A stretch of 64,000 nt of DNA from Leptotrichia wadei. Its GTDB lineage: Bacteria; Fusobacteriota; Fusobacteriia; Fusobacteriales; Leptotrichiaceae. The notes under the pieces are model-generated. The model ran no database searches. It saw nothing but the letters and a program-made list of their open reading frames with translations, and was not told the DNA's origin. Positions 3,478 through 13,588 of this stretch are shown here, in pieces. The first letter of the stretch is position 1. Each line of letters starts with the position of its first letter. Position numbers and translations under genes: made by a program. The stretch spans positions 2,108,001 to 2,172,000 of the forward strand of contig NZ_AP019841.1 of NCBI RefSeq assembly GCF_007990445.1, written 5' to 3'.

Positions 3478-3530
3478 AAAAAAAATACGCCACCCTTGTG
3501 ATGACGTATTTAAAAAGGAGTTTTGAAGAA
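3478..3530. repeat. attL: 53-bp direct repeat, left end of integrated element
   Basis: This 53-bp sequence, starting AAAAAAAATACGCCACCC and ending GAGTTTTGAAGAA, recurs without a mismatch at 13536-13588, 10,058 bp away. It contains the imperfect stem AAATACG...CGTATTT. A tyrosine integrase gene ends about 180 bp inside the right copy. This is the arrangement of attL and attR of an integrated element. The upstream 11-mer TACTGTATTAT is also shared. Confidence 0.88.
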
Positions 3531-3582
3531 TCAACATCCTTTTTAAAGAAAACCTAGTAAAATAAGGGCTAAATTTAAAAAA

Positions 3583-3600
3583 TAGTCCAACGTTAGTCCA
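3583..3600. promoter_or_regulatory. candidate integrase arm-type site (left)
   Basis: TAGTCCAACGTTAGTCCA consists of one TAGTCCAACG unit and most of a second. The identical 18-mer lies inside the right end at 13396-13413. Short direct repeats just inside each att core are what the N-terminal arm-binding domain of Tn916/lambda-type integrases recognises. That function here is inference. Confidence 0.6.
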
Positions 3601-3718
3601 GTAAGAAATTTTAAGAAAAAATCTCTAATTTTATAAAAAAATTCGACATTATCTGTAAATTTTAAAAATAGAAAATCCAACTAGAAACAATATTAAATTT
3701 AGTTATTGTATCATTTTT

Positions 3719-3754
3719 TCTCACTATGTTAATTTAGATAGTGAGTTTTTTTCT
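3719..3754 (+). terminator. rho-independent terminator
   Basis: An 8-bp stem, CTCACTAT pairing with ATAGTGAG, is followed by seven T. No intact gene precedes it on this strand, so it may be left from a lost gene or end a short transcript from the att region. Confidence 0.6.
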
Positions 3755-3845
3755 TGTAAGAGCTGATTTAAGAGTTTATTTTTGTTATTCAAGGGAAATA
3801 TCAAAAATAAGTTTAAACGTTCTCTATGGGGCTTATACAGAGTTA
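3755..3845. repeat. about 90-bp direct repeat, copy 1 (left border of cargo)
   Basis: This shares long near-identical blocks with 9697-9788, including AGCTGATTTAAGAGTTTATT and AGTTTAAACGTTCTCTA, then GGGGCTTATAC. The two copies bracket the toxin-antitoxin, AbiE and membrane-protein cargo. Function is unknown; it could be a recombination scar or a replication or regulatory element. Confidence 0.8.
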
Positions 3846-3888
3846 TCCGAGATTGTATTTTTGACATAGTCTGTGAGATAAAGTTCCA

Positions 3889-3959
3889 GTATTTTGCAAA
3901 GCCATCCCTATAAGTATGGCACTATTTTCTTGATTCTAATTAGTGTGGCTTTGAAATAC
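3889..3959. repeat. long imperfect hairpin
   Basis: GTATTT-TG-CAAAGCCA on the left pairs with TGGCTTTGAAATAC on the right: a 14-bp stem with a two-base bulge around a 40-base loop. It has no T tail, so it is not an obvious terminator. It may be a structured RNA or the end of a small non-autonomous element. Confidence 0.5.
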
Positions 3960-4068
3960 AAATAATTTTTTTTGAGAAAATTAGCAACCATTAATTTAAT
4001 TTGTATAAATTGTTGTAAAAATTATGAAATAAAAAATCTTGACTTATTATTTTTTTATTAAATAATAA

Positions 4069-4111
4069 TTGATTTTCAAATATTTTAGATGTATAATATA
4101 CATATATTATA
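4069..4111 (+). promoter_or_regulatory. dinJ-yafQ promoter with palindromic operator
   Basis: TTGATT, a 17-base spacer and TATAAT (4092-4097) form a good sigma-A/70-type promoter. The -10 box is part of the perfect palindrome TATAATATA-CA-TATATTATA at 4092-4111, directly before the antitoxin ribosome binding site. This is the expected place for DinJ autorepression. Confidence 0.65.
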
Positions 4112-4131
4112 AATTTTAAGGAGTGATAAAA

Positions 4132-4410
4132 ATGAGTGCAACAACTATAAATATAGATGATAACACTAAAAAAGAAGCTCAAGAATTGTTAAAAGATATG
4201 GGAATGAATTTGAGTACAGCAGTAAATGTATTTTTAAAACAATTAGTAAAGGAGCAAAGAATACCTTTTGAGATTGGAAATCCACGTCCAAGTCAAGAAT
4301 TATTAGAAGCATTAAGGGAAGTAGAGAAAATGAAGAAAAATCCCAATATGGGCAAAAGATATTCTTCTTCAAAAGAAATGATAAAGGACATACTGGAAAA
4401 TGATGAATAA
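4132..4410 (+). CDS. dinJ: DinJ/RelB-family antitoxin
   Basis: A 92-residue protein with the ribbon-helix-helix start typical of RelB/DinJ antitoxins (SATTINIDDNTKKEAQELLK, then NLSTAVNVFLKQ). The family binds its operator DNA and neutralises the partner endoribonuclease. I chose ATG 4132, which lies eight bases after AAGGAG, over the in-frame GTG at 4123 that overlaps the ribosome binding site. The stop overlaps the toxin start. It lies at the left end of the mobile element's cargo, which fits a maintenance role. Confidence 0.93.
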   Translation: MSATTINIDDNTKKEAQELLKDMGMNLSTAVNVFLKQLVKEQRIPFEIGNPRPSQELLEALREVEKMKKNPNMGKRYSSSKEMIKDILENDE

Positions 4411-4696
4411 CGATAAAGTGATATACTCGATACGGGCAACAAAGCAATTTCGTAAGAGTTTGAAACGTGTAGAAAGACGTGGATATAATATAGATTTATT
4501 AGATGAAGTTGTGGATATGCTATCAAAAGGAAAAAAATTACCTGAAAAGAACAAAGACCATAAATTGCAAGGGAAATTTACTAACAGTAGAGAGTGCCAT
4601 ATCACTCCAGACTGGTTATTAATATACGAAATAGAAAATGATGAACTTTTGTTATATTTGACAGATACAGGAACTCACAGCGATTTATTTGGATAA
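4400..4696 (+). CDS. yafQ: YafQ-family mRNA interferase toxin
   Basis: A 98-residue RelE/YafQ-type toxin. The family cleaves mRNA in the ribosome A site. Visible family features are IRATKQFRKSLKR at the N-terminus, DHKLQG, the HITPDWLLIYEI strand with its His and Asp, and the C-terminal GTHSDLF with the catalytic-type His. It starts with overlapping ATGATG codons inside the end of the antitoxin (11-base overlap), so the genes are translationally coupled. A strong terminator follows at 4705-4736. It appears intact. Confidence 0.93.
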   Translation: MMNNDKVIYSIRATKQFRKSLKRVERRGYNIDLLDEVVDMLSKGKKLPEKNKDHKLQGKFTNSRECHITPDWLLIYEIENDELLLYLTDTGTHSDLFG

Positions 4697-4704
4697 ACTG
4701 ATTG

Positions 4705-4736
4705 AATCACGGCTATTAATTCAGCTGTGATTTTTT
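4705..4736 (+). terminator. terminator after yafQ
   Basis: AATCACGGC pairs with GCTGTGATT (one G-U pair), followed by a T run. It sits immediately after the toxin stop. Confidence 0.8.
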
Positions 4737-4779
4737 CTTAAAATTATTTTATACAAATTAAAAAAATTAAGTAGTATCG

Positions 4780-4876
4780 TTCTAGTAGACTTTTTCGTTT
4801 CAAGGCAAGGTATTCCAAAAAATTTTTTAACGAACGCTACAAGGCTGTTACACGGATATACGAGCGAATAACAAAA
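4780..4876. repeat. possible divergent copy of the cargo-border repeat
   Basis: The order of motifs (GTTTCAAGG, a run of A/T, TTTAACG, CTACAAGGCT, TACACGGA) resembles the 90-bp repeat at 3755 and 9697, where the matching blocks are TTCAAGGG, TTTAAACG, CTACGGGGCT and TACGGA. Similarity is patchy and judged by eye. Confidence 0.3.
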
Positions 4877-4901
4877 GGGCCTCACTCAAAAAAGAAGGCC
4901 C
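4877..4901 (-). terminator. terminator downstream of the XRE gene
   Basis: GGGCCT pairs with AGGCCC around a 13-base loop. On the minus strand it is followed by TTTT. It serves the regulator gene that ends at 4977. Confidence 0.6.
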
Positions 4902-4976
4902 AAATTTAAAATCTATTTTTATAAAATACATCACTATTTTCTTAATTTTATTTTATAGCTTTAAATGTAATAAATT

Positions 4977-5303
4977 TTATTTAAATTTTTCTTTAAAAAA
5001 TGCATTTTGAATCTTATTGAACAATTCCTCTTTTTCTTTAAAATCTATATTTTCATTATTAAAAAACGATAGAATGGATGATTCTAAATTATTGGAATCT
5101 TTATTTATACCGTATAATATGTATTCAGGCGAAACATTGTATAAATTTGATAGTCTAATCAAACTCTCACTATTTATTTTCCTCTCGTTATTTTCATATC
5201 GTGAAATAGCACCAGCAGATGATTTTATTTTTCTAGCCACTTCTTCCAAAGAAAATTTGTACTTTTCTCTCAAACTCTTTAATCTTTTTCCTACATTTTC
5301 CAT
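4977..5303 (-). CDS. XRE-family HTH regulator (repressor 1)
   Basis: A 108-residue protein. Residues 6-62 form a Cro/CI-type helix-turn-helix (LKSLREKYKFSLEEVARKI, then SAGAISRYENNERK). The C-terminal tail is short and has no peptidase domain. It is divergently transcribed from the AbiE operon. The intervening region holds the palindrome AAATTGATA-TTT-TATCAATTT (5340-5360), a likely operator. The same operator region is duplicated at 6572-6680 in front of the Cro-like gene at 6695, so this repressor probably controls both. ATG 5303 follows AAAGGAG. Confidence 0.85.
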   Translation of the reverse strand: MENVGKRLKSLREKYKFSLEEVARKIKSSAGAISRYENNERKINSESLIRLSNLYNVSPEYILYGINKDSNNLESSILSFFNNENIDFKEKEELFNKIQNAFFKEKFK

Positions 5304-5310
5304 AGTAATT

Positions 5311-5420
5311 CTCCTTTAAAATCAATAAATTTTACCATAAAATTGATATTTTATCAATTTAATTGAAATAATAATGATAAATTTTATTTTTATGGTACAA
5401 TTATTTTACTAATTACCAAA
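5311..5420. repeat. operator/promoter direct repeat, copy 1
   Basis: About 110 bp that recur at 6572-6680 with few changes. It contains the ribosome binding site of repressor 1 (read on the minus strand), the palindrome AAATTGATA-TTT-TATCAATTT at 5340-5360, and ATGGTACAATTATTTTAC. It lies between the divergent repressor and abiEi genes. Confidence 0.85.
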
Positions 5421-5510
5421 TAAATAAAAGATATAAAATTTGAACAAAATCTTGATAATTATTCTTTAAAATATTAAAATTAAAGTGTAATAGTAAAGGT
5501 AGTGATAATT

Positions 5511-6110
5511 ATGTTAAAAATTACAAATGATAAATTAAATAATTTTTTTGAAAATAATACTATAATAACAGTTAAAGAAGCAGAAAAAATCGGTATAAAA
5601 AGACAGATTCTTTCTAATTTATGTAAAAAAGGAATTTTAGAAAGAGTAAAGCAAGGAGTTTATCAGAAAAATGATACAATTACAGATGAATTTGTAAAAA
5701 TACAAAAAAATAATAATGTGATTTTTTCAAATACGACTGCTCTATATTTTCATAATTTAACAGATAGAGTACCAAATACAATTTCAATAACAGTTCCACA
5801 AGGTTATAATGTTTTGCATATTACAAAAAAATCTGAAAATTTGAAAATTCATTATGTGAAAAAGGAAATATTTGAAAGTGGGAAAATTGAAACTTTGAGT
5901 AAAATGGGGGCTAAAATTTATATCTATGATAAAGAGAGAACGATATGTGATATTATAAAAAATAAAGAAAAAATTGATGTGGATGTATTTTCAAAGGCAT
6001 TAAAATTATTTTTTAAAAATAAGGATATAAAAGTAAGAAAATTGATAAAATATAGTAAAGAATTGAAAATTGATAAAAAAGTAAGAGAATATTTGGAGGT
6101 TTTGATATGA
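5511..6110 (+). CDS. abiEi: AbiEi-type antitoxin / transcriptional regulator
   Basis: A 199-residue protein. It has an N-terminal winged-helix part (TVKEAEKIGIKRQILSNLCK, then LERVKQGVYQK), as in type IV AbiEi antitoxins. The middle part, ending YIYDKERTICDIIKNKEKID, is the family's conserved core. AbiEi represses the operon and counteracts the AbiEii nucleotidyltransferase in phage abortive infection. I chose ATG 5511 over the GTG at 5502 because AAAGGTAG lies well placed before it. It overlaps the next gene by four bases (ATGA). It looks intact although its partner is broken. Confidence 0.85.
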   Translation: MLKITNDKLNNFFENNTIITVKEAEKIGIKRQILSNLCKKGILERVKQGVYQKNDTITDEFVKIQKNNNVIFSNTTALYFHNLTDRVPNTISITVPQGYNVLHITKKSENLKIHYVKKEIFESGKIETLSKMGAKIYIYDKERTICDIIKNKEKIDVDVFSKALKLFFKNKDIKVRKLIKYSKELKIDKKVREYLEVLI

Positions 6111-6580
6111 CATCAGAAAAGTTAAAAGGGAAAATAAAAAGTTTTTCAGAAAAAAGTAATTTGAAAGCACAGGAAGTGTTGCAAATGTATTTTTTTGAAA
6201 GATTTTTGACTCGATTAGAAAAATCAAAATACAGAGCGAAATTTATAATAAAAGGTGGATTTTTAATTTCATCAATTATTGGTATACAAAATAGAACAAC
6301 GATGGATTATGATATTTATATGATTTTTAAATTGAAAAATGATAAAATAAATGTAAATAATTTGAAACAAGCAATTTTGGAAACGGCAAAAAATAGAAAT
6401 TCAATGGAAGAAATATTAGAAAGCAAGGAAATTTTAGAAGATATTAAAAATAATGAATATTTGAATAAACAATGGAATATTTATTAAAATGAAAATAAAT
6501 ATGTTGATAATATACAATTTTCTGAAATTTTGAAATTATTAAATAAAATATCAGATATTATACAAGTTGATCTCCTTTAA
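6107..6580 (+). pseudogene. abiEii: decayed AbiEii nucleotidyltransferase toxin
   Basis: The open frame (6107-6487, 126 residues) starts like AbiEii: KGGFLISSIIGIQNRTTMDY has the KGG and Asp-x-Asp nucleotidyltransferase elements. After about residue 80 the sequence jumps to what resembles the family's C-terminal tail (NNEYLNKQWNIY). A TAA at 6485-6487 then interrupts an otherwise continuous frame (NENKYVDNIQFSEILKLLNK) that runs to 6580. AbiEii is usually near 300 residues, so most of the middle is missing and a nonsense codon has followed. This indicates an inactive toxin. The last bases merge into the second operator repeat. Confidence 0.8.
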
Positions 6581-6680
6581 AATCAACAAACTTTACCACA
6601 AAATTGATACTTTATCAATTTAATTGAAGTTGTCTTGACAAACTTTTAATTTATGGTATAATTATTTTACCAATTAGCAA
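6572..6680. repeat. operator/promoter direct repeat, copy 2
   Basis: A second copy of 5311-5420. It still carries the minus-strand ribosome binding site block CTCCTTTAAAATC although no repressor gene is attached, and the palindrome AAATTGATA-CTT-TATCAATTT at 6601-6621. The AbiE pair therefore sits between two copies of the same switch region. Confidence 0.85.
6635..6662 (+). promoter_or_regulatory. strong promoter for the Cro-like gene and downstream operon
   Basis: Consensus TTGACA (6635-6640) and TATAAT (6657-6662) are separated by 16 bases, 14 bases downstream of the operator palindrome. Copy 1 at the equivalent place has a weaker TACAAT box. Confidence 0.75.
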
Positions 6681-6694
6681 AAAGGAGAATAGAG

Positions 6695-6898
6695 ATGAAA
6701 AAGAATCTTTTAAAATCAAAAATGAGTTTACACGAAGACAACAATAAAACACTTGCACATAAATTAAAAATAACTCCTTCAGCATTTTCAAGAAAAATAA
6801 ATGGAACTAGTAATTTTACTATTGAAGAAATGAAATTTATTAGGAAAGAATATGAATTGAGTGATGTTGAGTTTTTGGATATTTTTTTTGATAATTAA
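6695..6898 (+). CDS. Cro-like small DNA-binding protein (DUF739-like)
   Basis: A 67-residue phage-type helix-turn-helix protein. It has LAHKLKITPSAFSRKINGTS for the recognition region and the ending FLDIFF, as in DUF739/phage Cro-like proteins. ATG 6695 follows AAAAGGAG. It is paralogous to the 72-residue protein at 11988-12206 (NISESGLNKKMNGKNFFTQ, ending LVQIFF). It faces repressor 1 across the duplicated switch region, so the pair resembles a phage CI/Cro switch. The exact role (activation, excision control or anti-repression) is not shown. Confidence 0.75.
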   Translation: MKKNLLKSKMSLHEDNNKTLAHKLKITPSAFSRKINGTSNFTIEEMKFIRKEYELSDVEFLDIFFDN

Positions 6899-6995
6899 TT
6901 TGCTATTTGGTAAATTTTAAAAAAGGAGATGATAATTTAATCGAAACATATTTTTATATCAAATAGAAAATTAAATTAGAATAGGAGTGAAAAAA

Positions 6996-7355
6996 ATGGA
7001 TAAAAGAAAAATTTGGGAGCAATACTATAACGATAATGATGAGAATAATAAAAATAATGGAGAAGAAAATAGCACTCAATCAGATGTTAAAAGAAAAGAG
7101 ATATTAGAACAGTATTATGATAAAAATAAGGACTTAAGCGATGAGAATGTAGGGCTAAAATATATAGGATTAGTTTATGTTGATGTTATATTATTAAATA
7201 TTATGACTGCTCTTGGTTTTGGAATATTTGCGAGTCTAACTGGTTATGATAGTCATTGGTTTATTGCTATTATTTTGTGGGTAATTGATGTGTTTGTATT
7301 AGCATTATTTTTAAAAACTGTAAGTCAAACTATAAGATATTTAAAAAAAATATAA
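6996..7355 (+). CDS. unrecognised small membrane protein, cargo gene 1
   Basis: A 119-residue protein I do not recognise. The acidic Asn-rich N-terminus contains a duplicated motif: RKIWEQYYNDND at about residues 4-15 and RKEILEQYYDKNK at about 32-44. Two hydrophobic segments follow (about 60-85 and 90-112). A cytoplasmic tail with a repeated docking-like motif and a two-helix membrane hairpin is one reading. I chose ATG 6996, eight bases after TAGGAG, over the GTG at 6987. It starts a four-gene run of membrane proteins with short spacers, likely one transcript from the promoter at 6635. Confidence 0.7.
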   Translation: MDKRKIWEQYYNDNDENNKNNGEENSTQSDVKRKEILEQYYDKNKDLSDENVGLKYIGLVYVDVILLNIMTALGFGIFASLTGYDSHWFIAIILWVIDVFVLALFLKTVSQTIRYLKKI

Positions 7356-7388
7356 TTAAAAGGATAACTTTAAAGAAAGGAACTTTTT

Positions 7389-7853
7389 ATGGATCTGAAT
7401 TTAGATTTTTACTTTTTATTCACTATTGTATTTTTTATTGTTTGGTTTTTTATAATTAAAAAAATTGAAATGGAAAAAGAAAACAATCTTAATGAGTTAA
7501 ATAATTTTATTATGAAAAAGATGAGAGAAGTTAATAAAAGTAACTATTATGAATTAAAATATATCGAGGGATTAGAATTTCAAAAAGAAGAAAAAGTTTA
7601 TGCTAAAATTTTAAATAACAGATTAGAAATTGGAAATTCGGATAAAAAAGAATTTTTAGATTTTGATAAAATTAAAATGATTGATTTTAATATAAGAGAA
7701 GAAGAATATGAAGATGTCATTTCAAATACTCTTGTAAAACATATATTTTTATGGAGTGAATTGAAAATATCGTATTTAGACAATAATGAAAATATTCAAA
7801 AAATAATATTTGAAGACAGAAATTTTACAATTGAAAATTCTGAAAAATTATAG
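7389..7853 (+). CDS. unrecognised membrane-anchored protein, cargo gene 2
   Basis: A 154-residue protein not recognised. One N-terminal membrane helix (about residues 5-24) is followed by a soluble, charged domain rich in Glu, Lys and Asn with alternating strands (KVYAKILNNRLEIGNS, KKEFLDFDKIKMIDFNI). This resembles small PH-like or sensor domains in outline only. ATG 7389 follows AAAGGAAC. It is the second gene of the membrane-protein run, 33 bases after gene 1. Confidence 0.65.
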   Translation: MDLNLDFYFLFTIVFFIVWFFIIKKIEMEKENNLNELNNFIMKKMREVNKSNYYELKYIEGLEFQKEEKVYAKILNNRLEIGNSDKKEFLDFDKIKMIDFNIREEEYEDVISNTLVKHIFLWSELKISYLDNNENIQKIIFEDRNFTIENSEKL

Positions 7854-7958
7854 AAAAAAGTTTTTTCTATTGTGAATATTTAGAAAACTTTAAAAAAGAG
7901 GATTCCTCATTTGAAATAAAATTAATCAAAAAATTAATTATAAATTTAAGGAGAAATT

Positions 7959-8839
7959 ATGAAAAATGATTTTTTTATCAAATTGGCTAAAAAAGATGAG
8001 AAAATGACTTTATTGAAAATAGCAACACTTCTATGTTTTATTGTACATACGATGATGTTGGTAAATTCGGAATCTATTCATCTTGTTCATTATTATATCG
8101 GTGAATATGAAATTTTCTATTTAATGGATTATCCAATGTATTTTCTATCATATTTTTTAGTGTACTTTTTATTTGAAAACACATTAATAATCATCTATTT
8201 AAAATTTAAAGTGAATGGAGAAATAGATAAATTTTTTAAACTAAATTACATACTATTAATTCTAACAATGGGATTTTATTCATTAAGCACAATATTTATG
8301 GTTTCTTTTATCATAAGTATTTATAAATGTTTTGAATTTGCTAAAACATTTTCAAAAAATAAAGAAAACTTGTTATTTTCAATATTAGGTTTTTTTACTA
8401 TTTTCTTTACTTCAATGTTATTATCTAAGATTGATAACTCTTTTTTTAAAATTTTAGTTTTATTACTAGGAATTTTAGCAATATCAAGTATTTATCTATA
8501 TAGTAAAAAAATAAATAAAGTTCCAAGTTTAAATTATGTTTTTTACTTTTAACCGAAATATGCTTTTTAACTAAAATTTTAGATTATGAATATGAATTAG
8601 TTAGTTTTACAGGATTGTGTCTATTAATTATTACAATAATTGTGAATTTAAGAGTTATTTCCCCTAAAATAAAATCTTATACAGATTTTAGTAAAATTCA
8701 AAAAATCATAATAATTATAGGTATTTTATTTAGTTTGTTTTCTAAAGTATACACAATCAAAAAACAAGAACAAATTGAAACTATTTCAAAACAGGAATCT
8801 GATACTAACAATTCAAATGAAAATAATACTTCGGAATAA
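7959..8839 (+). pseudogene. multi-pass membrane protein, cargo gene 3, interrupted by a frameshift
   Basis: Two open frames, 7959-8552 (197 residues, about six hydrophobic segments) and 8615-8839, appear to be one gene. The second frame is open backwards without a stop to at least 8519. Adding one T to the six-T run in ...TATGTTTTTTACTTTTAACC (8538-8543) joins them as NYVFLLLTEICFLTKILDY. The rebuilt protein has about 293 residues, seven or eight membrane segments and an Asn/Ser/Glu-rich C-tail. No family is recognised. The shift lies in a homopolymer, so it may be a sequencing error, a phase-variable tract or true decay. Confidence 0.65.
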
Positions 8840-8865
8840 AAATATGGAGAAAAGGAATAAAAAAT

Positions 8866-9672
8866 ATGAATAATAAAACAAATATTCGTAATTTAATATT
8901 TGGAATTATAATGGGATTGATTGCTATATTTAATATTTTTGAGTGGACTAATTTTATAATTAAGTATAACAAGCAAAATCCAAAAGTTTCAAAAGTTAAA
9001 AACTTAAAAAATAAAACTAATAAGCATAATAACAATAATACAGAAAATGATATTGAATATGAAGTAAAATCAGGATATAAATACAAAAAATCTAATGGAG
9101 AAAGTTCAACCTTTACTCCGAGAAATCTTGGATATGCTGAAAGCCTACTTAATAATCAAGTTTCATACGACAGTTTAAGAGAAGAATACTGTAGAACAGT
9201 AAACGAAATTGTTAAGGTAGATAATGGAATAATGCCAGGTACAACTAAACCTTTTGAAGAAGTAACCTATACTCAAGTAGATGACGCTTATAGAGAACAT
9301 TTACAAAAAATAGCACAAATTAGACAAGTATTTAATACAATTTATGGAAATGATAATAATTTGGAAAATGGAGCAGGTTGTCATTATACTGGTACTCATT
9401 GGAATAATGCAAATTCACAGTATAAAGCAAAACAATTTTACGATCGTTCTATAATTAAATACCTTAATAATCACGGTTATGGTATAAAAAATAATGCTAG
9501 TTCCACTCTTAAAAGAAAAGAAAAAAATCTAAATAATGAAAGAGAAATTGAAATTGAAAGAACAATTGACGAAACAATAAATCAAATTGATGGAACAACA
9601 AATCAAATTGACCAAACTCAAAATAATAGTTCAACAAATTCAGATGAAAGCGATGATGAATATTCAGAATAG
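8866..9672 (+). CDS. unrecognised protein with N-terminal membrane helix, cargo gene 4
   Basis: A 268-residue protein not recognised. One N-terminal hydrophobic segment (about residues 9-32) is followed by an Asn/Lys linker (about 40-60). A mixed domain comes next (about 70-200) with conserved-looking Cys, His and aromatic residues (REEYCRTVNEIV, GAGCHYTGTHWNNANSQY). The tail is hydrophilic with a short duplication (ETINQIDGTTNQIDQTQ). With one exposed domain it could be the external or surface member of the set. It follows gene 3 by 26 bases and precedes the 90-bp repeat at 9697. Confidence 0.65.
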   Translation: MNNKTNIRNLIFGIIMGLIAIFNIFEWTNFIIKYNKQNPKVSKVKNLKNKTNKHNNNNTENDIEYEVKSGYKYKKSNGESSTFTPRNLGYAESLLNNQVSYDSLREEYCRTVNEIVKVDNGIMPGTTKPFEEVTYTQVDDAYREHLQKIAQIRQVFNTIYGNDNNLENGAGCHYTGTHWNNANSQYKAKQFYDRSIIKYLNNHGYGIKNNASSTLKRKEKNLNNEREIEIERTIDETINQIDGTTNQIDQTQNNSSTNSDESDDEYSE

Positions 9673-9696
9673 AAAACAAAAGAGAAAATTTTTTAT

Positions 9697-9788
9697 TGTA
9701 ACAGCTGATTTAAGAGTTTATTTTTGTTATTCAAGGGGGGAAAATCAAAAATGAGTTTAAACGTTCTCTACGGGGCTTATACGGAGTT
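9697..9788. repeat. about 90-bp direct repeat, copy 2 (right border of cargo)
   Basis: The partner of 3755-3845. The blocks AGCTGATTTAAGAGTTTATT and AGTTTAAACGTTCTCTA are identical, with a few changes between them. It lies directly after the last cargo gene and before the terminator shared with repressor 2. Confidence 0.8.
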
Positions 9789-9810
9789 AAAAGTGCATAT
9801 TTTAATCAAA

Positions 9811-9838
9811 CAGGGCCTCTAAAAAATGAAAGGCCCTG
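9811..9838 (-). terminator. terminator between cargo and repressor 2
   Basis: CAGGGCCT pairs perfectly with AGGCCCTG around a 12-base loop. It lies between the convergent cargo gene 4 and repressor 2. Short A/T tails on both sides suggest two-way use. It resembles the GGGCCT hairpin at 4877-4901 behind repressor 1. Confidence 0.7.
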
Positions 9839-9853
9839 TATTTTGTTGCAAAT

Positions 9854-10537
9854 TTATTTGTTTTTAGTTTTCTCATTCAATTTTTCAATAATTTCTTTAA
9901 AAATACTTGGTTTTTTCAAAGGTACTTTTTTAAATATTTTTTCCATTCTTTCTATTTCTTCATCATCATATCCTGTATCACTTCTATCTAAGTGATATAC
10001 TTCAAGATAATTTATAAAATCATTTATATTATTTTCTGAACGAAGACTTATAAATGAAAGAAAATCCTTGATTCCAATATAAAATATATATTTTTTATTT
10101 GGACTTCGCACAGCTATCACTTTAGGGTTTCTTATAGCGTCTTCTACATCTCCATAAATCAATCCGTTTTCTTCATCTATCGAATTTATCACATTGAATG
10201 AAAATCCTAAATTTTCTAAATAATCAATAAAACATATTATAGCTGTTATTCTCTTGTTTTCTTTAAATAAATTACTTAAAATTTCTCTTATTTCTGATTT
10301 TTCTTCTTTTTTAAAAAATTTTTCCAATTCATTTAAAGGTATCTCAAGTATTCTAAAAAAATCAAGCAAAGTATTAAATGGTATTGTTCTTTTCCCAACT
10401 TCATATTTTTGTATACTTAATTTTGTTATATCCATTTGCTTGGCAAGATTTTCCAAACTCAATCCTTTTCTTTTTCTATAATTTCTTATTATCTCTCCCA
10501 AAATTTTATTATTTAATTCTTTATTATTTTCTTCCAT
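9854..10537 (-). CDS. XRE-family repressor with C-terminal domain (repressor 2)
   Basis: A 227-residue regulator. Residues 10-70 form an XRE helix-turn-helix (IIRNYRKRKGLSLENLAKQM, then QKYEVGKRTIPFNTLL). The C-terminal domain of about 130 residues (KVIAVRSPNKKYIFYIGIKD) has no recognisable Ser-Lys peptidase pair, so LexA-type self-cleavage is not supported. It is divergent from the small Cys4 protein, Rep and integrase genes. The gap holds three copies of TCAAAAAGAT-type boxes around a TTGACA promoter. It is the likely master repressor of replication and excision functions. Confidence 0.85.
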   Translation of the reverse strand: MEENNKELNNKILGEIIRNYRKRKGLSLENLAKQMDITKLSIQKYEVGKRTIPFNTLLDFFRILEIPLNELEKFFKKEEKSEIREILSNLFKENKRITAIICFIDYLENLGFSFNVINSIDEENGLIYGDVEDAIRNPKVIAVRSPNKKYIFYIGIKDFLSFISLRSENNINDFINYLEVYHLDRSDTGYDDEEIERMEKIFKKVPLKKPSIFKEIIEKLNEKTKNK

Positions 10538-10608
10538 AATTTTTCTCCAATCTTTGTTAGTACCATAATTATATAATAAATTTTACAAAATTTCAATAAC
10601 TTTTTTAA

Positions 10609-10725
10609 TCAAAAAGATACATTTTTTAAAAAATATGTCAAAAAGATATTGACAAATTTAAAAAATAATGGTACAACTATATCGTAATACAAAAGTATAA
10701 TTTATTTTAAAATACATCTTTTTGA
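10609..10725 (+). promoter_or_regulatory. switch region: rep promoter and repressor boxes
   Basis: TTGACA (10649-10654), a 17-base spacer and TACAAC (10672-10677) direct transcription toward rep. The box TCAAAAAGATA occurs at 10609-10619 and 10638-10648, the second abutting the -35 box. An inverted version (ACATCTTTTTGA) lies at 10714-10725. The arrangement fits repression by the divergent XRE protein. Confidence 0.6.
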
Positions 10726-10853
10726 ATATAAATTTTATTCTTCTATTATTAATTAGTATTAAACAAAATAAAAAAAAATTATAAAAAAATAACAATAAAA
10801 AAATGTAGTTTATTCCAAAAGAAAAGGTAGAAATTTTAAAAGGAGTGAATTTT

Positions 10854-11006
10854 ATGAAAAATAAAAGTTTAGAAAAAGAGGCAATTGAAAAACATTGTCT
10901 TGAATGCTGGGATGATGATAAGGAAAAAGTTTTAAACTGTCCCTATAATAAATGTCCTTTGTGGAAATTTAGATTAAAAGAAGAGAAGAAAGGAGAAAAG
11001 AATTGA
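10854..11006 (+). CDS. small Cys4 phage-type protein
   Basis: A 50-residue protein. ATG 10854 follows AAAAGGAG with ideal spacing. HCLECWDDDKEKVLNCPYNK, then CPLWKFR, places four to five Cys as CxxC...CxxxxCPLW. Many phage and plasmid small proteins share this C-x-x-C...C....C-P-L-[WY]-x-[FY]-R pattern, which is presumably a zinc knuckle. Its stop overlaps the rep start (TGATG), so the two are translationally coupled and probably act together. Function is unknown. Confidence 0.75.
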   Translation: MKNKSLEKEAIEKHCLECWDDDKEKVLNCPYNKCPLWKFRLKEEKKGEKN

Positions 11007-11767
11007 TGAAAACAGATACAGAAAAAGTGATAGAAGAGAAGGAAAATTATTATTTAAAGGCTCTTGAATGGTATTCTGAATACGAAATAATATCAAAATC
11101 TGAATACAGCAGTATTAATACCTGTTTTAATAATTATATTGAATGCCACGAAAACTCAATGAAATTTACTAAAAATTTAAGATGTAAACGGAGAAGCTGT
11201 CCTATATGTGATGAAATAGACAGAAGTGCCAAATATTTTGAAATAATGAAGAAAATAGAAAATTTTAAAAATAGATATTTGATATTTATACTGACAATAA
11301 ATGGAAAAAATGTTGAAATTGATGATAAAAGTAGATTACAAAATGAATTAAATGTAGTAAGGACAAACTTTAATAAATTAGTCAAAAGTCCTTTTTTGAA
11401 AAAGACTGTAAAAGGATATTTAAGAGTAACGGAAATAGCTTATAATCCTGAAAGAAATTCTTTTCTTCCTCATTTACATATCCTGCTATTTACAATAAAA
11501 GGGATATACAAACATTTTAAAATGAAAGAATTAAAAGAAATGATACAGACTAAATGGAATATTCTAAATGGATTTAAAACCAATGTTCGTTTAGAAAAAT
11601 TAGGTACAGAAGAAAAAGTACAGAAAACAGTATCTTATTTAACTCATTCTAAAAAGAAAAGATTGAAAAATTTTTTTGATAATGATGAAAATAAGACAAT
11701 TCTTTCTATTTATTTAAATATTATAAAAAGGAAAAGAATATATTATTGGAGTAAATTTAAAGAATAA
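11006..11767 (+). CDS. rep: rolling-circle replication initiator (HUH, Rep_1-like)
   Basis: A 253-residue protein. A Cys cluster (RCKRRSCPIC, residues 59-68) is followed by the strand YLIFILTING, then YLRVTEIAYN. The HUH-type motif PHLHILLF has His156 and His158 for the metal site, and VSYLTHSKKK has Tyr211 as the likely nicking residue. This is the motif order of Rep_1 (pC194/pUB110-type) initiators, which nick the double-strand origin and attach covalently. I chose ATG 11006 in the TGATG overlap over the TTG at 11003. Together with the integrase it suggests an integrative element that replicates by rolling circle when excised. Confidence 0.85.
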   Translation: MKTDTEKVIEEKENYYLKALEWYSEYEIISKSEYSSINTCFNNYIECHENSMKFTKNLRCKRRSCPICDEIDRSAKYFEIMKKIENFKNRYLIFILTINGKNVEIDDKSRLQNELNVVRTNFNKLVKSPFLKKTVKGYLRVTEIAYNPERNSFLPHLHILLFTIKGIYKHFKMKELKEMIQTKWNILNGFKTNVRLEKLGTEEKVQKTVSYLTHSKKKRLKNFFDNDENKTILSIYLNIIKRKRIYYWSKFKE

Positions 11768-11987
11768 GAATATTTCCTGTCAGACTTATCCCCTTTGATT
11801 GATAATAACGAATCAAAAAAACAATTTTATGAAATAAATTTTTAAATTATTGAAAACTATAAACAGAAAATATATCTAAAATACAAGTTAAAAATCAAAA
11901 AATGTAATATATAAAAACTTGCAACTTATTTTAACTTATTTTATCTAAAAATATACTAATAAAAATAGAGAAAGTAGAGTGGTAAAT
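11768..11987. other. spacer between rep and the small HTH gene
   Basis: About 220 bp, very AT-rich, without a clear terminator or recognisable gene. It could hold an origin, but no nick-site motif stands out. Confidence 0.3.
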
Positions 11988-12206
11988 ATGAATTTAGAAG
12001 ATAAGAGACTAATATACTATACATTGAAAAGTAGAATTAGAAAAAAGAAATTGAACTATAAAGAAATATCAAAAAAAATGAATATATCAGAAAGTGGACT
12101 TAATAAAAAAATGAATGGAAAAAATTTTTTTACACAATCAGAAATATATGAATTAAAAGAATTGTTAGAATTGAGTAATGATGAATTGGTACAGATATTT
12201 TTTTAA
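11988..12206 (+). CDS. small HTH protein next to integrase (DUF739-like; possible excisionase or Cro)
   Basis: A 72-residue basic helix-turn-helix protein (LNYKEISKKMNISESGLNKK, then MNGKNFFTQSEIYELKELL). It is paralogous to 6695-6898. Its place directly upstream of the integrase is where recombination directionality factors are usually encoded, but the sequence itself looks Cro/DUF739-like. The start is uncertain: ATG 11988 or the GTG at 11979; neither has a strong ribosome binding site. Confidence 0.65.
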   Translation: MNLEDKRLIYYTLKSRIRKKKLNYKEISKKMNISESGLNKKMNGKNFFTQSEIYELKELLELSNDELVQIFF

Positions 12207-12292
12207 ATAAATATATTGCAATAAAAGAAAAATAATATTAAAATTATAAAGCAGATAATGCTTTTTAGTTGGATTTTCAGAATGGAGAAAAT

Positions 12293-13357
12293 ATGAAAAA
12301 GTATAAAAATGCAAACGGTACAGGGAGTATAACAAAAGTTAAAATAAATAGAACGAATCCTTTTAGAGTTAGAGTTACTAACCCTGTAACTAAAAAAAGA
12401 CATTCTTTGGGATATTTCAGCACTAAAAAGGAAGCAACAGAAGTATTAAACAAATATTTTAATAATCCTTACAATTTAGAAAATCATAGAATTAAATTTA
12501 AAGATTTGTTTGAGTTATTTAAAAACAGTAAAAAAGATATTGTTGCTAAAAATACTTTGAACAGTTACATCAATAGTTTTAAACGATGTAAAGAGTTACA
12601 TAATCTGGTTTTTAAAGATATTAGCACTCCAGTATTGCAAAATCTAATAAATGATTTAAATTGTAGTATTTCAACTAAAAGTATAACAAAAGGATTTTTA
12701 AAAATTTTTTGGGACTATGCGAGAGAAATAGACATATTGGAAAAAAATAGAGCAGAATTTATAAATTTACCAAAAGAAACTGAAATCAAAGAAAAAAAAC
12801 CTTTTAATTATGATGAAATAGAAAAATTATGGGAAAACACGGATATAATATGGGTAAAATATATTTTAATTATGATTTATACAGGTATGAGAATCGAAGA
12901 AACTGTAGAATTGAAAAAGGAAAATGTAGATTTACAGCAGGAATTTATACACGGTGGAAATAAAACTAGAAAAGGAAAAAATAGAAGCATACCTATTCAT
13001 AAAGATATAGTTGAAATTATAAAAGAGCTTTATGAAAACAGTCCAACAGATTATTTAATATACAATGATAAATGGATATTCAGTAAAAAAAAGAATGAGA
13101 ATAAGCCTTTAAGAAAAAATTATTTTCGTGAGAAATTTTATAAAACATTGGAAACTTTAAAAATTAATAAACATAAACCTCACGATTGTAGAAAAACACT
13201 AGCAACACTTATGAGTAATCAAAAAATAAATAATATTGTGATAACAGATATAATGGGACACGAAAATATTGCGACAACAAAACAATATTATATTCAGACA
13301 GATAAACAAAAACTAAAGTTATCAATGAATAGTTTAAATTTTAGAAAAACTTCATAG
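12293..13357 (+). CDS. int: tyrosine recombinase / integrase
   Basis: A 354-residue site-specific recombinase. The N-terminal part (NPFRVRVTNPVTKKRHSLGY) is an AP2-like arm-binding domain and the SAM-like core-binding domain follows (about 65-160). The catalytic domain shows Arg in YTGMRIEE (about 200), HDCRK (His297, Arg300), His323 in MGHENIATT, and Tyr332/333 in TKQYY. All are intact. I chose ATG 12293 after TGGAGA; an upstream TTG at 12269 is in frame but has no ribosome binding site. It lies 180 bp inside attR with a terminator behind it, the standard place for an element's own integrase. Confidence 0.95.
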   Translation: MKKYKNANGTGSITKVKINRTNPFRVRVTNPVTKKRHSLGYFSTKKEATEVLNKYFNNPYNLENHRIKFKDLFELFKNSKKDIVAKNTLNSYINSFKRCKELHNLVFKDISTPVLQNLINDLNCSISTKSITKGFLKIFWDYAREIDILEKNRAEFINLPKETEIKEKKPFNYDEIEKLWENTDIIWVKYILIMIYTGMRIEETVELKKENVDLQQEFIHGGNKTRKGKNRSIPIHKDIVEIIKELYENSPTDYLIYNDKWIFSKKKNENKPLRKNYFREKFYKTLETLKINKHKPHDCRKTLATLMSNQKINNIVITDIMGHENIATTKQYYIQTDKQKLKLSMNSLNFRKTS

Positions 13358-13381
13358 AAAGCCTTAATTATAGGCTTTTTT
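13358..13381 (+). terminator. terminator after int
   Basis: AAAGCCT pairs with AGGCTTT around TAATTAT, followed by a T run. It overlaps the integrase stop. Confidence 0.85.
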
Positions 13382-13395
13382 CTTGACATTAGTTT

Positions 13396-13415
13396 TAGTC
13401 CAACGTTAGTCCAAC
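13396..13415. promoter_or_regulatory. candidate integrase arm-type sites (right)
   Basis: Two tandem TAGTCCAAC units (TAGTCCAACGTTAGTCCAAC). The first 18 bases are identical to 3583-3600 at the other end of the element. They lie about 120 bp inside the right att core. Confidence 0.6.
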
Positions 13416-13504
13416 GGATAAGGTAAATGAGTACCTTTTTATGAAAAATTACAAATAAATAAAAAAACCAAAAAAATGAAAAAGATAACTGAATACCTTT
13501 TTGG

Positions 13505-13588
13505 TACTGTATTATCTTGTTTTGTAAGAAATGGCAAAAAAAATACGCCACCCTTGTGATGACGTATTTAAAAAGGAGTTTTGAAGAA
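13505..13588. repeat. attR: 53-bp direct repeat, right end of integrated element
   Basis: The core repeat is 13536-13588, identical to 3478-3530. The TACTGTATTAT at 13505-13515 matches 3446-3456, so the shared region extends outward with a divergent 20-base middle. Beyond 13588 the sequence differs from the left copy. Confidence 0.88.

Follow-up and report, generated by a model that had tools for sequence, protein, structure and literature searches.

The 64,000-nucleotide stretch of Leptotrichia wadei analysed here (contig NZ_AP019841.1, positions 2,108,001 to 2,172,000; hereafter the window) contains an integrative element at about 3478-13588, the cargo slot of which holds four collinear genes on the forward strand (genes 1 to 4, 6996-9672). 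The four-gene module is best filed as exchangeable integrative-element cargo, a known kind of arrangement, built on a lineage-specific domain in gene 4 that is absent from the searched libraries. The element is bounded by paired attachment-site (att) repeats and has a slot, behind a conserved promoter sequence, in which cassettes have been exchanged; the four genes are under constraint and in part damaged in the window. Tentatively, and at somewhat less than even confidence, we read them as an exchangeable envelope-guard cassette, with the gene 4 product displayed at the cell wall and the products of genes 1 to 3 as its membrane partners.

The borders of the element were located by a repeat search, which detected a perfect direct repeat of 53 nucleotides (nt) with copies 10,058 bp apart (left att repeat, 3478-3530; right att repeat, 13536-13588), adjoining a gene that we take from its sequence to be feoB. 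The first-pass annotation, made from the sequence alone, had regarded the four genes as mobile-element cargo, and these repeats bear that out. A degenerate version of the att pattern was present in 13 of 13 genomes of the genus (cited below by handles such as G004). It occurs once in G007 and G009, both of which are without a match to the Rep protein of the element, as two copies on one contig in six carriers (G000, G002, G003, G005, G008, G012) and as two matches on separate contigs in each of G010 and G011. Single matches were also obtained in G001, G004 and G006; the left repeat is shorter (20-21 nt) in G004 and G006, and no left att repeat was found in G001. Having a tyrosine integrase (Int; 12269-13357, forward strand; Pfam PF00589, E 3e-28; PHROG 1, E 6.8e-59), a paired att repeat and an empty site elsewhere, it is a site-specific integrative element. 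It also encodes a rolling-circle Rep protein (11003-11767, forward strand; Pfam Rep_1, E 1.8e-16), which matches 994 plasmid records, mostly of Staphylococcus and every one at <60% identity, and a search for which returned 16 matches across 13 genomes. Two weak Rep matches (G005:C4, G020:C165) were left out of the element comparison, which comprised 13 elements including that of the window.

The slot is located between a BetR-like small helix-turn-helix (HTH) regulator (6695-6898, forward strand; Pfam BetR, E 5e-4, 20.6 bits vs a cut-off of 21.6), the first gene of the presumed slot operon, and a presumed element repressor (9854-10537, reverse strand; Pfam HTH_3, E 1.3e-9), whose role is suggested by its position. 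The four-gene cassette was found in four of the 13 elements (window, G004, G006, G011:C35), in each case at this same position. In G010, G011:C2 and G012 the slot is occupied by another cassette, whose proteins are anchored by a leader or a helix; the gene-4 domain is present in the alternative cassettes of the first two, and in G012 the cassette is headed by a broken, stop-containing remnant of gene 1. Yet another gene set was detected in G002, G005 and G008, and in G003 the BetR-like open reading frame (ORF) runs into a membrane-anchored protein. The slot of G019, which belongs to another genus, encodes a 312-amino-acid (aa) protein, a 142-aa protein and a 373-aa gene-4 homologue. In G001 (L033:8905-10962) the slot holds a small protein with a leader-like N-terminus and a 685-aa protein matching PADLOC Orf5/HEC-06 (E 8.5e-120), presumably of the DUF262 type. 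The G001 element also has a second Rep-like gene.

The element backbone is mosaic. Between G006 and the window a 108-aa HTH protein (HTH108), AbiEi, the BetR-like regulator, genes 1 to 4 and Int are 96-100% identical and Rep only 41%; in G011:C2 and G001 Rep and Int are 96-99% identical to those of the window and the slots are different. Since siblings with near-identical Rep and Int have other slot genes, genes 1 to 4 appear to be unnecessary for the element itself. The four genes would represent one version of the swappable cargo in a family of Leptotrichia site-specific integrative elements.

A candidate slot promoter (6635-6662, forward strand) matches the consensus TTGACA-16-TATAAT at 12 of 12 positions and has a TG before the -10 box; this is a consensus match only, in a region with 73 promoter-like sites compared to 50.4 +/- 6.4 in shuffles. 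The promoter scan before the BetR-like gene covered ten loci, in nine of which (not in G001) the start codon was located. Eight of these nine elements have a 12/12 promoter and the ninth an 11/12 match, placed 32-35 nt upstream of the BetR start codon. G019 is among the promoter-bearing elements, its spacer having diverged, and this sequence-level conservation of a candidate promoter across the genus boundary is suggestive. The shared promoter sequence and the exchange of cassettes give the slot the appearance of a site from which interchangeable cargo is expressed.

Gene 1 (6996-7355, 119 aa) encodes two EQYY-type motifs followed by a two-helix membrane hairpin according to hydropathy; the automatic ORF listing begins it three codons upstream, at a GTG. 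The motifs and the hairpin had been described before, the motifs as lying in the tail, whereas they are located in the N-terminal half. The truncated gene 2 (7389-7853, 154 aa) is predicted to encode one N-terminal membrane helix and a beta-rich soluble domain, possibly PH-like. Gene 3 (7959-8839) is broken into ORFs of 197 aa (7959-8552) and 74 aa (8615-8839) and corresponds to a multi-pass membrane protein encoded by a single ORF in relatives. The intact gene 4 (8866-9672, 268 aa) combines a single N-terminal membrane helix, as detected by hydropathy, with a two-cysteine domain (about 9058-9477). Hydropathy of the intact G006 homologues indicated one N-terminal helix for gene 2 and seven hydrophobic segments for gene 3, so that the topologies first proposed for genes 2, 3 and 4 hold.

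The full four-gene set was detected in four of the 40 genomes searched, its own included (G000, G004, G006, G011), and thus co-occurs in three other genomes of the genus, as the first-pass annotation had suggested checking. Relative to the window, gene 1 shares 90-98% aa identity with its homologues in G004 and G006 and 51-55% with those in G011; for gene 4 the values are 95-97% and 84-85%. Ratios of nonsynonymous to synonymous substitution rates (dN/dS, Nei-Gojobori) for genes 1 to 4 were 0.10-0.58 in 17 of 18 pairs, the remaining pair (gene 1) having no synonymous change and hence no ratio; those of genes 1 and 3 are fairly high (0.41-0.58). Conservation in three further genomes together with these ratios indicates that genes 1 to 4 are real and moderately constrained. 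Matches to genes 1 and 2 in G020 (E about 5e-5 to 7e-5) were rejected as chance, the gene-1 one lying over an ORF that looks transporter-like by eye.

The four proteins had been described as unrecognised, and searches of Pfam, PHROGs, PADLOC and NCBIfam likewise gave only weak hits, the Pfam ones being below cut-off. They include DUF2207_C for gene 1 (E 0.0043), a BRCT model for G006 gene 2 (E 0.0058) and PHROG 22405 for gene 4 (E 0.0014). With PADLOC 2.0.0, neither genes 1 and 4 of the window nor genes 2 and 3 of G006 matched any family at E up to 0.1. In a sequence search against solved structures that covered genes 2 and 4, the best E-values were 0.37 (a 14-3-3 protein, gene-4 profile) and 1.4 (G006 gene 2). 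The model of the G011 homologue of gene 2 is of low confidence (predicted local distance difference test, pLDDT, 45.9); the order of its strands and helices fits the PH fold, and tandem-PH structures are among its most probable matches, none of them significant and without a Pfam PH match. Given the poor model, a PH-like fold is a guess only. Homology of gene 2 to the 312-aa slot protein of G019 was considered and received no support from BLAST; the C-terminal end of gene 3 aligns weakly with a G019 slot protein (E 0.001). A literature search, from which subscription papers were mostly excluded, found no paper title on this element or these genes.

The gene-4 domain was found in nine of 98 Fusobacteriota genomes and two of 29 genera (Leptotrichia and one neighbouring genus), and its two cysteines are conserved without exception in all 20 domains aligned. 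No significant match was obtained in Pfam, NCBIfam, PADLOC or among solved folds, and there was no phage or plasmid record match to gene 4 at E up to 0.01. In a wider contig collection, in which near relatives of the window may be absent, gene 4 was detected only in a strain of Leptotrichia sp. oral taxon 879. Four further hits (G029, G002 and an additional one in both G001 and G000; E 6.9e-5 to 3.1e-4) were discarded: three are confined to the tail, and the domain profile picked up none of the four. The G019 gene 4 carries, as a fusion, a domain that in G010 has a gene of its own (75% identity over 143 aa). The best of five gene-4 models built from six sequences had a pLDDT of 83.4 and a predicted template modelling score (pTM) of 0.82, the others reaching a pLDDT of 64.8-77.7; its best VIA Z of 4.7 was tied among unrelated helical proteins.

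Gene-4 domains also occur on the chromosomes of five genomes of the genus. In G001, G005 and G011 three membrane-anchored copies are arranged in tandem, and on the chromosomes of G000 and G003 the domain ends proteins of about 600 aa whose genes are clustered with those of an Hsp70, a weakly GrpE-like protein and an LprI protein. The G000 cluster (L028:5321-12445) comprises the LprI protein, the weakly GrpE-like gene, the Hsp70 (549 aa) and two of the ~600-aa proteins with the domain at the C-terminus. The chromosomal Hsp70 was assigned by NCBIfam DnaK models, below the equivalog cut-off. In the one ~600-aa protein scanned, which is that of G000, the gene-4 domain is preceded by a single membrane helix; the N-termini of these proteins appear J-domain-like by eye, which Pfam does not recognise in the one scanned. 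If the N-terminal part is cytoplasmic and one membrane helix follows, the gene-4 domain would come to lie outside, and the leader-like N-termini, judged by eye, of the G010 and G011:C2 proteins agree with such a location. In keeping with this, seven cysteine-bearing slot products taken as exported (gene 4, G019 gene 4 and five of G010) have two or four cysteines each.

The link to the envelope comes from the neighbourhood of the domain. In the alternative cassette of G010 the gene-4-domain protein has as neighbours a protein with an LprI domain (PF07007, E 2.5e-11) and another with an SH3b domain (PF08239, E 3.1e-8). Together with the chromosomal Hsp70 cluster, this neighbourhood is the best clue to function, and it points to the cell wall or periplasm in general rather than to phage in particular. 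Proteins with an LprI domain include ScwA of Salmonella and LprI of Mycobacterium tuberculosis; they share the slot with the gene-4 domain in G010 and a chromosomal cluster with it in G000 and G003, while gene 4 itself is not recognisable as an LprI domain: Pfam gave no LprI match in the four window proteins or among the 20 gene-4 domains. ScwA is reported to be periplasmic and stabilised by a disulfide (PMC7933661), and Campylobacter mutants of an LprI-domain gene to show lower recovery from macrophages (PMC8375061). The LprI literature thus speaks for a function at the wall more than for inhibition of lysozyme itself. In the G012 locus L034:9727-11810 several short proteins have the same type of N-terminal membrane anchor as LprI proteins, and a profile of LprI plus anchor gave 2-13 matches per genome in the 13 genomes of the genus, some of which cover the anchor alone.

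On these grounds the envelope-guard reading may be drawn as follows. The products of genes 1 to 4 would form an assembly in the inner membrane, in which gene 3 may provide the multi-pass core and genes 1 and 2 may put small domains on the membrane. The two-cysteine domain of gene 4 would lie outside the cytoplasmic membrane, towards the cell wall. Such an assembly might act as a guard of the envelope; its likeliest mode of action would be to bind or restrain enzymes active on peptidoglycan, or other attack on the wall originating from the host, rival bacteria or phage, and the element would pay for its carriage through protection of its host.

Several results weigh against this reading. The gene-4 domain has no known biochemical function and no significant fold match, and a Foldseek search of its model against the PDB and viral models gave no match at E up to 0.001. 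For genes 1 to 3 no homologue with a known role was found. The export of gene 4 is argued from relatives and by eye: the leader-like N-terminus of the G010 gene-4 protein went undetected at the threshold of the hydropathy scan, and the lysine-rich stretch following the gene-4 helix is in itself no argument for a C-terminus on the outside. Even cysteine counts discriminate poorly, since the 312-aa G019 protein, which was not taken as exported, also has four. Gene 4 as a divergent LprI was tried and rejected (hhalign probability 0.07% against a three-sequence Leptotrichia LprI profile). Salmonella ScwA is reported to play no part in resistance to lysozyme (PMC7933661), and Campylobacter strains with and without an LprI-domain gene to show no difference in their sensitivity to it (PMC8375061). 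Finally, the slots of G001, G003 and G012 are without a gene-4 domain, and as the G001 slot holds a DUF262-type defence candidate along with one small leader-like protein, the cargo of the slot extends beyond proteins of the gene-4 or envelope kind.

The copy in the window is damaged, which was not visible in the first-pass annotation; its picture of four collinear genes is correct as to their reality and conservation and fails for the integrity of genes 2 and 3, and overall it is partly supported. Gene 2 is 23 aa shorter in the window than its 177-aa homologues in G004 and G006, and the two ORFs of gene 3 correspond to one ORF of 280-296 aa in relatives; genes 1 to 3 are full length in G004, G006 and G011. 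Upstream of the slot, AbiEi (5502-6110, forward strand; assigned by the PADLOC AbiEi match of its G006 homologue) is full length, whereas AbiEii (6107-6487, forward strand; PADLOC AbiEii match of the full-length G006 homologue) is a pseudogene of 126 aa compared to 277 aa in G004, G006, G010 and G012, caused by a 369-nt internal deletion and an early stop. In principle, sequencing error could account for the single-base tract changes of genes 2 and 3, in contrast to the AbiEii deletion and to losses of 2 nt and 9 nt; as a control for such errors outside the element the flank is too small, feoB being the only shared gene and full length. With genes 2 and 3 broken, the assembly is probably not functional in the window strain, if it needs them.

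Among the rival explanations, superinfection exclusion or abortive infection, in which a membrane assembly would block phage genome entry or trigger cell death on infection, is possible and rather doubtful; an exclusion or immunity function, as first guessed, is one of two plausible readings and not the better supported. It draws on the AbiE and DinJ-YafQ-like neighbours, which are present as stated earlier except that AbiEii is broken, on the G001 protein, a defence candidate in the same slot, on the prophage-like arrangement of regulator and repressor, and on a weak PADLOC match of the G010 LprI protein (PDC-M66B, E 0.0011). T4 Sp provides a precedent, as it is considered to reside in the periplasm and to hinder lysis by the cell-wall-digesting protein of the virion (PMC6832632). 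The T4 Imm/Sp systems serve as a working analogy only, made without sequence comparison, and no phage homologue of the genes was found: genes 3 and 4 have no match in phage records and genes 1, 2 and 4 none in viral contigs. AbiE beside the slot and the DUF262-type gene inside the G001 slot belong to the same element family; unlike them, genes 1 to 4 match no defence model in PADLOC. Moreover, a domain that is also chromosomal, in the Hsp70 cluster and as tandem membrane-anchored copies, would not be expected of a dedicated exclusion system. Alternatively, the genes may be reassorting lineage-specific host surface or envelope genes picked up by the element, dispensable and of little selective benefit. 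The truncated genes 2 and 3 and the AbiEii pseudogene of the window fit this, as do the chromosomal gene-4 domains of five genomes, the numerous LprI-type matches and the fairly high dN/dS of genes 1 and 3. We nevertheless consider it unlikely, since dN/dS remains below 1, four elements share the gene order, the promoter sequence has been conserved and three relatives have genes 1 to 3 at full length.

A role in the maintenance or transfer of the element, such as mobilisation, entry exclusion of sibling elements or replication-linked membrane attachment, would agree with the constant position between regulator and repressor. The Rep protein is furthermore related to rolling-circle initiators, some families of which are relaxases in streptococcal integrative and mobilizable elements (PMC5357655). 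These elements likewise combine a tyrosine integrase, a Rep-type protein, att repeats and cargo; the relaxase families named in the part of PMC5357655 at hand do not include Rep_1, the Leptotrichia Rep may be either a replication initiator or a relaxase, and the parts assigned in its element include no coupling protein or oriT. In view of the different slot genes beside near-identical Rep and Int in G011:C2 and G001, such a role appears improbable. That genes 1 to 4 are structural or morphogenesis genes of an inovirus-like filamentous phage is suggested by several small membrane proteins next to a rolling-circle Rep, which also matches five Inovirus records (43% coverage, <30% identity). This scenario seems highly improbable: inspection revealed no Zot/pI-type ATPase among the element ORFs, ten of which were scanned against Pfam and eight against PHROGs, the two largest being the integrase and gene 4; the whole set is replaced in sibling elements, and there were no significant viral matches.

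The remaining features of the element surround the slot. A DinJ-like and YafQ-like toxin-antitoxin pair, named so in the first-pass annotation, is encoded by ORFs at 4123-4410 and 4400-4696 (forward strand); both genes occur in seven of the 13 compared elements and the DinJ half alone in one more (G005). HTH108 (4977-5303, reverse strand), labelled as HTH by eye, is divergent from the slot operon and has related genes in sibling elements, and a further HTH gene lies between the Rep_1 gene and the tyrosine integrase. A 111-nt operator- or promoter-like region is duplicated (85%) around AbiE (5310-5420, 6571-6681). This duplication, together with G019, which is without AbiE and has both genes directly adjacent, suggests that AbiE was inserted between the HTH and BetR genes. 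No terminator-like site was detected in 5200-11000. A repeat of about 100 nt at the slot end (9689-9789) has a partner near the left end of the element (3747-3845), with pieces 91-96% identical. Its ten strong matches, in six of the 13 genomes of the genus, all lie in element-holding loci; no Rfam match was obtained at E up to 0.5, and the folding z was -1.1.

Taken further, the envelope-guard reading would imply that the cassettes mobilise wall-facing guard domains otherwise found beside a chromosomal Hsp70, and that the four genes form an undescribed membrane complex that neutralises muralytic attack, digestion of the wall during phage entry among it, and thus a periplasmic exclusion system; we put this forward as a long shot. 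If the envelope-guard reading is true, the Leptotrichia element would be a mobile element in which a single conserved promoter precedes a swappable envelope-protein cassette, with classical defence genes alongside. The gene-4 domain with its two invariant cysteines would then be a defined object to test for wall protection or phage exclusion and, the copy in the window strain being damaged, the intact relatives are the ones in which to test it.

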